Assembly: GCF_014199915.1 (NCBI RefSeq)
Contig: NZ_JACHOO010000005.1
Span: 124,001-188,000, forward strand
DNA: 64,000 nt
DNA from: Prosthecomicrobium pneumaticum
Lineage (GTDB): Bacteria > Pseudomonadota > Alphaproteobacteria > Rhizobiales > Kaistiaceae
Reading direction: 5' to 3'
Of the stretch, positions 60,245-62,343 are shown piece after piece. The position numbers and the translations under genes were made by a program. Numbering within the stretch: the stretch's first letter is position 1; each line of letters begins with the position of its first letter. The notes under the pieces are model-generated. The model saw only the letters and a program-made list of their open reading frames with translations, ran no database searches and was not told the DNA's origin.

Positions 60245-61048
60245 TCAGGCCGACAGCGTGGCGATCACCGGCACATGGTCGGATGGACGCTGCCAGCCGC
60301 GCGCCGCGCGCACCACCTCGATACCGGCGAGCCGGGGGCCGAGCGGCGGCGTCACCCAGATGTGATCGAGCCGGCGGCCGCGATCGGAGGCCGCCCAGTC
60401 CTGCGCCCGGTAGCTCCACCAGGTGTAGAGCTTCTCCTCGATCGGCACGAAGCGGCGCACCGCGTCGATCCAGCCGCCGGCGATGCGGATCGCCTCCAGC
60501 CCCTCCGTCTCGACCGGGGTGTGCGAGACGACGTTGAGAAGTTGCCTGTGCGACCAGACGTCGGTCTCGTAGGGCGCGATGTTGAGGTCGCCGACGAGGA
60601 TCGCCGGGCGGTCGGTCTCAGGACCGGTCAGCCAGTCGCGCATCTCGGCGATGAAACCGAGCTTGTGCGCGAATTTCGGGTTGATCGCAGGGTCAGGCTC
60701 GTCGCCGCCGGCCGGGACGTAGAAATTGTGCAGGGTGACCGGGCCACCGCGATCGTCGACGACGACGGCGATGTGGCGGGCGTCCTCGATGCCGTAGAAA
60801 TAGCGCCGGCTCGTCTCGACGAAGGGCCGCTTCGAGACGATGGCGACGCCGTGATAGCCCTTCTGGCCGTGCACCACCTGATGGACATAGCCGAGCGCGC
60901 GCAAGGGCGCCGCCGGGAACTGATCGTCCCGGCACTTGATCTCCTGCAGGCACAGCACGTCGGGCCGCCAGCGCTCGAGAAAGTCGCGCACGAGGTCGAT
61001 CCTGAGGCGGACGGAATTGATGTTCCAGGTGGCGATCGAGAGCGTCAT
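60245..61048 (-). CDS. xthA: exodeoxyribonuclease III / AP endonuclease
   Basis: A 267-aa EEP-family nuclease for base-excision repair. Motifs: LSIATWNINSVRLR at the start, LCLQEIKC with the metal Glu, GYHGVAIVSKRP, VGDLNIAPYETDVW, YTWWSYRAQDWAASDRG with RLDHIW, and SDHVPVIATL at the end, holding the catalytic Asp-His. It lies downstream of lolA on the same strand with a terminator between, an arrangement I know from Rhizobiales. Confidence 0.94.
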   Translation of the reverse strand: MTLSIATWNINSVRLRIDLVRDFLERWRPDVLCLQEIKCRDDQFPAAPLRALGYVHQVVHGQKGYHGVAIVSKRPFVETSRRYFYGIEDARHIAVVVDDRGGPVTLHNFYVPAGGDEPDPAINPKFAHKLGFIAEMRDWLTGPETDRPAILVGDLNIAPYETDVWSHRQLLNVVSHTPVETEGLEAIRIAGGWIDAVRRFVPIEEKLYTWWSYRAQDWAASDRGRRLDHIWVTPPLGPRLAGIEVVRAARGWQRPSDHVPVIATLSA

Positions 61049-61102
61049 GCGGCAAGCGGAACGGACGGAGGACGGGCGACTGCTTCTATCTCGCGGGCGG
61101 AC

Positions 61103-61140
61103 AAAAGAAAACGCCCAGCCCCGGGGGGAGGCTGGGCGTT
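61103..61140 (-). terminator. intrinsic terminator (minus strand)
   Basis: AACGCCCAGCC (61110-61120) pairs perfectly with GGCTGGGCGTT (61130-61140). On the minus strand the stem is followed by TTTCTTTTGT. It ends transcripts coming from lolA or from the candidate small RNA just upstream of it. Confidence 0.88.
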
Positions 61141-61232
61141 CGCGCTCTCGCGCTTGGCACCGCTTGTCGCGATGCCGGCGGGTCGTCCTCGGCGAGACGG
61201 GGGGCACTACCGATGTCAGAACGACCCGCTGT
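61105..61232 (-). ncRNA. candidate small RNA between lolA and xthA
   Basis: On the minus strand, TTGAAA (61262-61267), a 17-bp spacer and ATCTCT (61239-61244) form a possible promoter. About 128 nt later lies a strong terminator. Between them three stems can form: a 9-bp GCGGGTCGT/ACGACCCGC pair (61178-61186 with 61221-61229), a GGCA..TGCC stem over 61156-61176, and a small GCGC/GCGC hairpin. The loop of the first carries CCCCCC, suited to pairing with Shine-Dalgarno sites. A suhB-type or other Rhizobiales intergenic RNA is possible; it could also be just the lolA 3' untranslated region. Confidence 0.45.
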
Positions 61233-61301
61233 GACCAAAGAGATGGGGGGCGGCCGCGGCCTTTCAAGAGTTTCCCGATCACGGAATCGGGAGCGGTCCC
61301 G

Positions 61302-61967
61302 CTATTTGTTGGTGCCGGTGCGGAACCGGTAATAATCGATCTTGAAGTACTCGGGATCGGCCTTCTTGCCGGTCTCGACATTGTAGATGGCGACGGAGGT
61401 GTCGAGCCCCTGCGGGTCGGTCACCACCCACTGCTTGAGCTCATAGGTCTTGGCGTCGAAGATCAGGCGCAGCTTGCCGTCGCCGAAGGCGGATTCCTGC
61501 ACCAGCACGAGGGTGATGAGATCGGGCTCCTCGATCACCTGGCGGACGATGTTGGCGGAGGTCAGGTCGATCCGGTCGGAGAGCAGATAGCGCAGCGGCG
61601 TCTTCGACAGCGGGTAGAGATCCTGCGTCATCATCGAGCGGTCCTGCACCGCCACCTGGCTGCCGTCGGCGATGACGTCCATCTTGACGGGCGCCTTGTA
61701 GTGGAAGCGGATCTTGCCCGGCCGCTCGATGAAGAAGACCCCTTCGGACTGCTCGCCATTCGGGCCGAACTGGATGAACTCGCCCTGCATCTGACGGATG
61801 CCGTCGAAATAGGTGTTGATCTTGCCGAGCGCCTCCTGCTGCTGCGGCGTGAACTGCGCCGCGGCGGGCAGGGCGGCGAGGAGCAGGACGAGGCAGGCGG
61901 CGGCAAACACACCGACGGCACCGCCAAAGCGGGTGGGCGAAAGGAGGCGGTCGGACAAGGGCGTCAT
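61302..61967 (-). CDS. lolA: outer-membrane lipoprotein carrier protein LolA
   Basis: A 221-aa periplasmic chaperone carrying lipoproteins from LolCDE to the outer membrane. The start at 61967 precedes a long N-terminal region and signal peptide (GVFAAACLVLLLAALPAAA). The mature part shows INTYFDGIRQMQGEFIQFGP, GVFFIERPGKIRFHYKAPV and WVVTDPQGLDTSVAIYNVE, typical of alphaproteobacterial LolA. An upstream in-frame extension runs through repeat-like sequence and is rejected. Confidence 0.9.
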   Translation of the reverse strand: MTPLSDRLLSPTRFGGAVGVFAAACLVLLLAALPAAAQFTPQQQEALGKINTYFDGIRQMQGEFIQFGPNGEQSEGVFFIERPGKIRFHYKAPVKMDVIADGSQVAVQDRSMMTQDLYPLSKTPLRYLLSDRIDLTSANIVRQVIEEPDLITLVLVQESAFGDGKLRLIFDAKTYELKQWVVTDPQGLDTSVAIYNVETGKKADPEYFKIDYYRFRTGTNK

Positions 61968-62343
61968 CCCTGAAGCGTTTCGAGCGAGTTTCGGCCGCCA
62001 ATCTAGGAACGGTTTCCGGCGATTTTTCGGCCCGCCGCCCAACGCCGCGGCGGCGCGCCGGTTGCCGTGCACGGCAGGAGGCTCTTCCTTCGCCGAAGGA
62101 AGGCCTTCACCCTGCCCTCTCCCGCGAGCGGGAGAGGGGATACCGAGCGGCGCACTCATCCGTTTCCGTTCGCCGATCCCACCCATCCCCGGCCGCCATT
62201 TCCACGCGACCGAAATCGCCCCCCTCTCCCGCGGGGCGGCAGCGGGGCGCGATGTCGCGGTGCGCGGGAGGAAGGGATCCCGGGCGATGCGCTCGTCCTT
62301 TCGACGCAGCGTCGGCCGCTGCGCGTGCCGGGAGGCGGCCGTG
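61968..62343. other. 376-bp intergenic region with a REP-like palindrome
   Basis: The space between the lolA start and the transaldolase stop holds no gene I can support. It contains the palindrome at 62115-62138 and a related half-element CCCCTCTCCCGCGGGGC near 62220. The remainder is GC-rich and featureless by eye. Confidence 0.6.
62115..62138. repeat. REP-like palindrome
   Basis: CCCTCTCCCGC (62115-62125), a GA loop, and GCGGGAGAGGG (62128-62138): a perfect 11-bp stem of a kind widespread between genes of many proteobacteria. Confidence 0.8.

Follow-up and report, generated by a model that had tools for sequence, protein, structure and literature searches.

The lolA-xth gap of Caulobacter crescentus encodes RusT (CCNA_R0199), a 118-nt Hfq-bound small RNA (sRNA) with four stem-loops (Vogt 2024; PMC11005374). 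The sections of that report on which we draw place the seed in the AUCCCCU loop of stem-loop 2 (SL2), at nt 45-57 and including C53, and describe compensatory changes that restored regulation in two of three reporters. The Hfq site is stem-loop 3 (SL3), nt 73-84. RusT rises on iron starvation or zinc and is repressed by NtrX; it in turn represses TonB-dependent receptors and OmpW, and the rusT deletion strain grows normally under iron starvation and zinc stress. RusT homologues were reported in Caulobacteraceae (PMC11005374).

Three other RNAs bear comparison with the RNA studied here. EcpR1 (SmelC291; Rfam Atu_C6, RF02500) resembles it as a conserved Hyphomicrobiales trans-acting sRNA with a GC-rich loop and a terminator. 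In Sinorhizobium meliloti it lies, according to the parts of its description used here, between divK-pleD and rpmG and has the loop UCCGCCGCAUCU (PMC4414408). 6C RNA (RF01066) shares a CCCCCC loop in a GC-rich hairpin. PmaR of Agrobacterium, which we liken by description, acts on mRNAs through an accessible C-rich loop; the passages of the PmaR paper cited here depict a spoon-like molecule with a single long stem that regulates most targets positively and mostly away from the ribosome-binding site (PMC6234868).

We investigated the lolA-xthA gap in the window, a 64-kb stretch of Prosthecomicrobium pneumaticum DNA, where the original prediction had placed a non-coding RNA on the minus strand at 61105-61267. 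Our results bear this out: judged by its conservation, a short gene for a non-coding RNA does lie in this gap. We put at roughly three in four the probability that it is an independent gene for a trans-acting sRNA of ~128 nt, orthologous to Caulobacter RusT by position and descent but divergent from it. The original prediction did not name RusT, and this identification was added by the later analysis.

The RNA of the lolA-xthA gap and its conservation

The region 61105-61267 lies in the non-coding gap between lolA and xthA, both of which are also on the minus strand. Its minus strand folds at -83.9 kcal/mol, compared with -65.5 ± 4.0 kcal/mol in 200 dinucleotide shuffles (z -4.55), none of which equalled it; the predicted 128-nt RNA folds at -76.1 kcal/mol. 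The fold consists of three hairpins followed by a 14-pair intrinsic terminator and a U-rich tail, with UUUUCUUUUG directly after the terminator. C6 runs occur three times, in the promoter spacer, the stem-loop 1 (SL1) loop and the terminator loop. The features of the locus are as follows.

61302..61967, minus strand: lolA, upstream neighbour (Pfam LolA 3.6e-32; start codon approximate, ORF to 62186)
61262..61267, minus strand: -35 box TTGAAA, its TTGA kept across loci
61240..61245, minus strand: CATCTC, a weak, probable -10 box (matched by eye to TATCTT/TATCTA in relatives)
61105..61232, minus strand: predicted sRNA, ~128 nt, proposed RusT-locus homologue (from fold and covariation; start from promoter, end from terminator)
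61178..61229, minus strand: SL1 (fold; 11-pair outer helix covaries, 5-pair inner helix near-constant)
61194..61208, minus strand: SL1 loop AGUGCCCCCCGUCUC, the most conserved element and proposed pairing site
61156..61176, minus strand: SL2 (fold; 8 of 8 pairs with double changes; loop without the C-rich RusT-type seed of sister families)
61142..61153, minus strand: SL3, small GCGC hairpin (fold; corresponds to the Hfq-site hairpin of RusT in position alone)
61110..61140, minus strand: stem-loop 4 (SL4), intrinsic terminator with C-rich loop (fold; 94.6% of cells paired across order loci)
61102..61111, minus strand: U-rich tail, the sequence after SL4
60245..61048, minus strand: xthA (exonuclease III), downstream neighbour (Pfam Exo_endo_phos 2.5e-32)

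Searching by DNA similarity at E<=0.01, we obtained matches from 39 of 61 genomes, the window's own included, the weak matches being partly chance, and lolA and/or xthA were present in 28 of 30 loci from this search. We built a covariance model, R1, from 20 members of the order Hyphomicrobiales, including the window sequence and excluding any Caulobacter sequence. R1 matched 39 of the 40 loci searched, its own 20 source loci among these. Over the order it matched 110 of 297 genomes at E<=0.01, where about 3 matches are expected by chance, and 98 of these at E<=1e-4; 12 of the 110 had supplied sequences to R1, and the E-values, coming from a short calibration, are rough. A second R1 match in the window's genome (G000:C1:301513-301658, E 0.003) was set aside as chance-like, inside coding-like sequence.

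The stems are preserved by compensatory change. Across 42 order loci (40 distinct), 90.3% of paired cells remained paired, compared with 78.7 ± 0.5% in shuffles and at most 42.3% in slid versions. Double-change cells numbered 202 (70.7 in shuffles, at most 42 when slid), 28 pairs showed double changes (21.1 in shuffles), and the covariation score was 0.401 (slid controls at most 0.105). These figures are favoured by the design, since the scored structure was mapped from the window's own fold and the alignment was fitted to R1, whose structure is near-identical. The terminator pairs of R1 are one base out of register, giving a poor 54.1% paired when counted with the R1 structure, and terminator pairing was therefore re-counted with the corrected structure on the R1-fitted alignment.

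Covariation is carried by the outer SL1 helix, in which each of the 11 pairs has one or more sequences with both partners changed, together with SL2 and the terminator. The apical SL1 helix (5 pairs) is near-constant, with zero double changes, and lacks covariation support because it hardly varies at all; the inner two pairs of SL3 were 56.4% paired across the order, which is weak support. The three stems and strong terminator of the original prediction correspond to SL1-SL3 and SL4, and the conservation of stems in relatives, on which that prediction had staked itself, was found. Its CCCCCC loop is the C6 run of the SL1 loop. In 20 sequences (L001 numbering in alignment A1) the invariant SL1 positions are G26, G27, T28, G30, C33-C38 and G39-T42. 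RNA lengths across the 42 loci vary freely modulo 3, which argues against a conserved peptide.

Two side observations concern the surrounding DNA. Palindromic sequence of the CCCTCTCCCGC...GCGGGAGAGGG type lies 5' of lolA at 62080-62250, and GGGAGAGG-type repeats resembling these palindromes sit between the RNA and xthA in locus L013.

Relationship to RusT and the two C-rich loops

The window RNA occupies the same gap and strand as RusT, is of similar size (~128 versus 118 nt), has a TTGA-type -35 box and a C-rich unpaired loop, and is predicted to form four stem-loops of which the last is an intrinsic terminator. We collected Caulobacteraceae loci by sequence pattern (106 stretches, 80 of them listed). 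lolA and xthA flank the RNA in all ten named Caulobacteraceae loci examined, and four of the ten are strains in the RusT paper's alignment (C. hibisci KACC 18849, C. zeae 410, C. endophyticus 774 and C. radicis 695). Seven Caulobacter sequences fold into four hairpins, matching the published structure. If the RNA of C. vibrioides DSM 9893 is numbered by counting 118 nt back from its terminator, both nt 45-57 and C53 map to the AUCCCCU stretch and nt 72-87 to the GAGAG...CUUUC hairpin.

R1 contains no Caulobacter sequence. When it was run on 79 kb from 11 sources, seven of them with rusT, searched with no filters, the top six matches lay on or overlapped rusT: C. hibisci (24.3 bits, E 7e-4), C. 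vibrioides OR37 (18.1), C. zeae (17.0), Phenylobacterium kunshanense (16.3, poorly aligned), C. vibrioides DSM 9893 (13.6) and P. deserti (13.5, poorly aligned). In L120, the remaining rusT source, rusT scored 9.2 bits, under chance matches, and only four rusT matches had E<0.05.

For the reverse search we made a second model, R2, exclusively with RusT sequences of the Caulobacteraceae type, 21 in all, both named and unnamed. Its best match was the R1-defined RNA in 18 of 18 sources; the highest of these scores was 42.1 bits, in another family, and the lowest 12.7 bits, in one member of the window's family. Within the window, R2 ranked the RNA first (19.9 bits, E 1.9e-4; next match 15.1 bits), with an alignment mostly over the terminator and SL3 and with SL2 misaligned. 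Under the stricter filters of a genome-wide search of the class, the window's genome yielded no R2 match (E<=0.01).

In this class sample R1 matched 11 of 289 genomes, the window's own included. R2 matched 35, many of them apparently at bare terminators, so this number is not a count of real homologues. The two models coincided in six of the ten other R1-matched genomes (G183, G287, G203, G199, G063 and G280), and lolA and/or xthA adjoin the shared sites in all six; R2 had no match in G298, G290 and G186 and matched elsewhere in G069. One or both genes adjoin 10 of the 30 R2 class loci examined. Matches that look like bare terminators, with neither gene nearby, include L229, L230, L232, L234-L236, L239 and others.

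Taken on sequence evidence, the sRNA reading can be made specific: the window RNA would be a divergent RusT homologue, linked to RusT through intermediates, the direct match being weak. Membership in RusT is not strict, judged by the same evidence, as the SL2-loop seed AUCCCCU with its C53, a defining feature, is gone from the window's family. SL3 also differs, being GC-rich in the window RNA and GAGAGAC...CUUUC in RusT.

Another RNA, CC2171 (RF01867), was considered as a Caulobacter marker and dropped, as it is spread over the class, with matches at E<=0.001 in 61 of 289 genomes, of which 10 exceeded the cut-off. Among 14 control genomes only Caulobacter vibrioides matches it. It scores above the cut-off in the window's own genome, outside the window (G000:C2:622049-622211, locus L048).

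How are the two C-rich loops distributed? A C-rich SL2 loop is present in all 25 aligned order loci outside the window's family and in none of 23 inside it (17 aligned and six further members that were left out of the alignment and checked separately for this loop), as scored with a pattern drawn up after inspection of the sequences. L002 and L022, in the window's family, have a GUCCCC-type SL2 loop. The SL1 motif AGYGCCCCCCGUCU is kept in the window's family and is absent from all 66 distinct RusT sequences of the Caulobacteraceae type, which were chosen by their SL2 motif; the 5' hairpin of one Caulobacteraceae-type locus, L120, does contain a C6 run, in a different context. Ten R1-found loci of other families (L032-L041) carry a C6-C8 run in the SL1 loop, which reads GUUGCCCCCCCGCU or near variants in eight and has another context in L038 and L040, and their SL2 loops are ACCCCUCCC, AUCCCCUCCC, AUCCCCUCUC or AUCCCCUACC.

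One reading of this distribution, which we consider evenly balanced between true and false, is that RusT, rather than being peculiar to Caulobacter, represents a single branch of an ancient sRNA of alphaproteobacteria, that this sRNA has two C-rich modules for targeting, SL1 and SL2, and that lineages switched module at a fixed locus. The SL1 module would be AGYGCCCCCCGUCU in Hyphomicrobiales and GUUGCCCCCCCGCU with its variants in other families, and the SL2 module AUCCCCUCCC with its variants. On this view Caulobacteraceae, which lack the SL1 motif, retain only the SL2 module, the window's family retains only SL1, and both are present in the other examined members.

Proposed mode of action

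The original prediction read the RNA as a trans-acting sRNA, and the conserved stems, loop and -35 box, together with its behaviour as an independent gene, support that reading. Most likely it is a base-pairing sRNA that uses SL1. With the SL2 seed of RusT gone from the window's family, the likely pairing site is the near-invariant SL1 loop. We propose that the RNA is transcribed from about 61232, the predicted start, probably under stress control, and that it would pair with G-rich stretches of mRNAs, most likely near start codons. By analogy with the action of RusT on TonB-dependent receptors and OmpW, pairing would lower translation. PmaR raises most of its targets and can act away from the ribosome-binding site, and the direction of regulation is therefore the least certain step of this proposal.

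The C-rich terminator loop may be an extra pairing site, perhaps assisting the SL1 loop. Terminator loops of this kind (CCUCCCCCCGG) occur in family f2 (for example L190) as well as in the window's family, and those of families f30 and f31 (for example L197 and L026) are poorer in C. Help from Hfq is possible, an hfq gene being present in the genome, and stays putative, as the window RNA does not preserve the sequence at which Hfq binds RusT SL3.

The genome has four matches to TonB-dependent receptors. Duplexes of the SL1 loop with these four, whose starts are uncertain, gave -9.4 to -19.7, compared with -14.6 ± 3.2 (best -22.8) for 42 roughly called genes of the window, and this target prediction showed no clear rise of the receptors above background.

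A C-rich loop could instead act mainly by binding a protein or another RNA, as in sponging or sequestration, rather than by pairing with mRNAs. The near-invariance of the SL1 loop across the order, perhaps beyond what drifting targets require, would suit such a role, as would the absence of the SL1 motif from Caulobacteraceae-type RusT, and a sponge RNA has been published in Caulobacter, to go by the part of that report considered here (PMC12559287). However, the C-rich loops of RusT (PMC11005374) and PmaR (PMC6234868) are described, in the sections cited, as acting on mRNAs, and nothing in our analysis points to a protein partner. We regard this alternative as improbable and favour base pairing with mRNAs through SL1.

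Neighbouring transcripts and known RNA families

Is the RNA its own gene, or part of the lolA or xthA transcript? A TTGA lies 40-75 nt 5' of the RNA core in 34 of 37 scored loci, compared with about 11% in shuffles, and the three misses are L016, at a contig end, L025 and L037 (L034 and L036 are outside the 37, as the core pattern gave no match there). In order-level members possessing it, the distance from TTGA to the core is 51-60 nt. A strict sigma-70 consensus scan of 60500-62000 returned no promoter, the -10 box is weak, and a looser promoter score was barely above shuffles (7.6 versus 6.95, sd 0.93). Together, TTGAAA at 61267-61262 and the weak CATCTC at 61245-61240 predict a start near 61232, in agreement with the start originally proposed.

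We counted neighbours in 58 loci within the flank examined (up to 1.5 kb); 19 of the 30 loci of the R1 order search entered this count, the other 11 being repeats of genomes already included. Upstream, 49 loci have lolA on the same strand, and downstream, 37 have xthA on the same strand (36 plus L195, the latter by its true coordinates): 30 loci have both, 19 lolA only, 7 xthA only (one at a contig end) and 2 neither. The RNA thus persists where xthA or lolA is not found alongside, and it is probably its own gene. Its -35 box, its terminator and its occurrence without either close neighbour speak against its being no more than the 3' end of lolA or a leader of xthA.

The better of these two alternatives is that the RNA is the 3' end of the lolA mRNA, either an elaborate terminator or a processed 3'UTR-derived sRNA with no promoter of its own. 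The frequency of lolA upstream is what this would predict, and the gap between lolA and the RNA in order-level loci is mostly 65-215 nt. It is nevertheless unlikely, given the TTGA box kept at a narrow distance from the core and the six loci with no lolA in the flank (L003, L035, L038, L040, L204 and L214). Caulobacter rusT, moreover, has its own promoter, PrusT, in the sections of the RusT paper cited (PMC11005374). In L007, 558 nt resembling an inserted gene separate lolA from the RNA, and both the RNA and its -35 box are intact there.

That xthA follows on the same strand in 37 loci might instead suggest a role in cis, as an xthA leader or attenuator or as a riboswitch. We consider this very unlikely: a strong terminator stands between the RNA and xthA, the distance between them ranges from 5 to 979 nt, 19 loci have lolA and no xthA in the flank, and Rfam riboswitches gave no match. 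An independent gene therefore remains our preferred reading.

The original prediction had pointed to Rfam, including suhB and the alpha-r families, and here the search came back empty, with no Rfam 15 family at gathering score in the whole window. By E-value, 60900-61400 gave five matches, all sub-threshold, and the window RNA thus reaches no Rfam 15 family. The same kind of search (E<=0.1) on eight RNA-bearing loci, two of them named Caulobacter, gave none. The best of the five matches, 6C RNA at 24.6 bits and EcpR1 at 16.1 bits, are all that speaks for identity with either RNA, which we consider next to impossible, as both are far under the required 47 and 60 bits, the 6C alignment is limited to SL3 and the terminator, and EcpR1, in the parts of its description used here, differs in locus and loop and was dropped.

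The RNA appears to be missing from part of the order. The nearest plasmid-record relatives of the window's XthA are from Shinella, Sinorhizobium, Rhizobium and Methylobacterium (59-65%), a similarity by which we assign the window to Hyphomicrobiales. No recognisable RNA was found in the lolA-xthA spacers of Shinella (~150 nt) and one Rhizobium record (L219, L220), and R1 gave only 9-bit matches, at chance level, on the Shinella spacer. These two lolA-linked loci suggest that the RNA was lost in Rhizobiaceae. The Sinorhizobium record examined has xthA without adjoining lolA, and in the Methylobacterium record the two genes stand 1.6 kb apart, with R1 scores of at most 7.3 bits.

A 2011 paper on sRNA families of Rhizobiales, based on Sinorhizobium, names neither lolA nor xthA in the portion of its main text considered here, and the fact that the RNA is not visible in the two Rhizobiaceae spacers may explain this absence. 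The sections used here of a Methylosinus transcript map list EcpR1 and alpha-r45 by Rfam and leave the window RNA unmentioned. In the open-access literature, 17-base pieces of the core were absent from full texts, the RusT paper was the only relevant one combining lolA or xthA with an sRNA, and no description of the RNA outside Caulobacteraceae was found.

Our work links a widely conserved Hyphomicrobiales RNA, absent from Rfam 15, to RusT, one of the few functionally studied Hfq-dependent sRNAs in alphaproteobacteria, and covariance models are now at hand for annotating the lolA-xthA RNA. If the two-module reading is true, SL1 would be an uncharacterised and strongly conserved targeting module, and the locus would offer a natural experiment in which an sRNA swaps its targeting loop while its place in the genome stays fixed.
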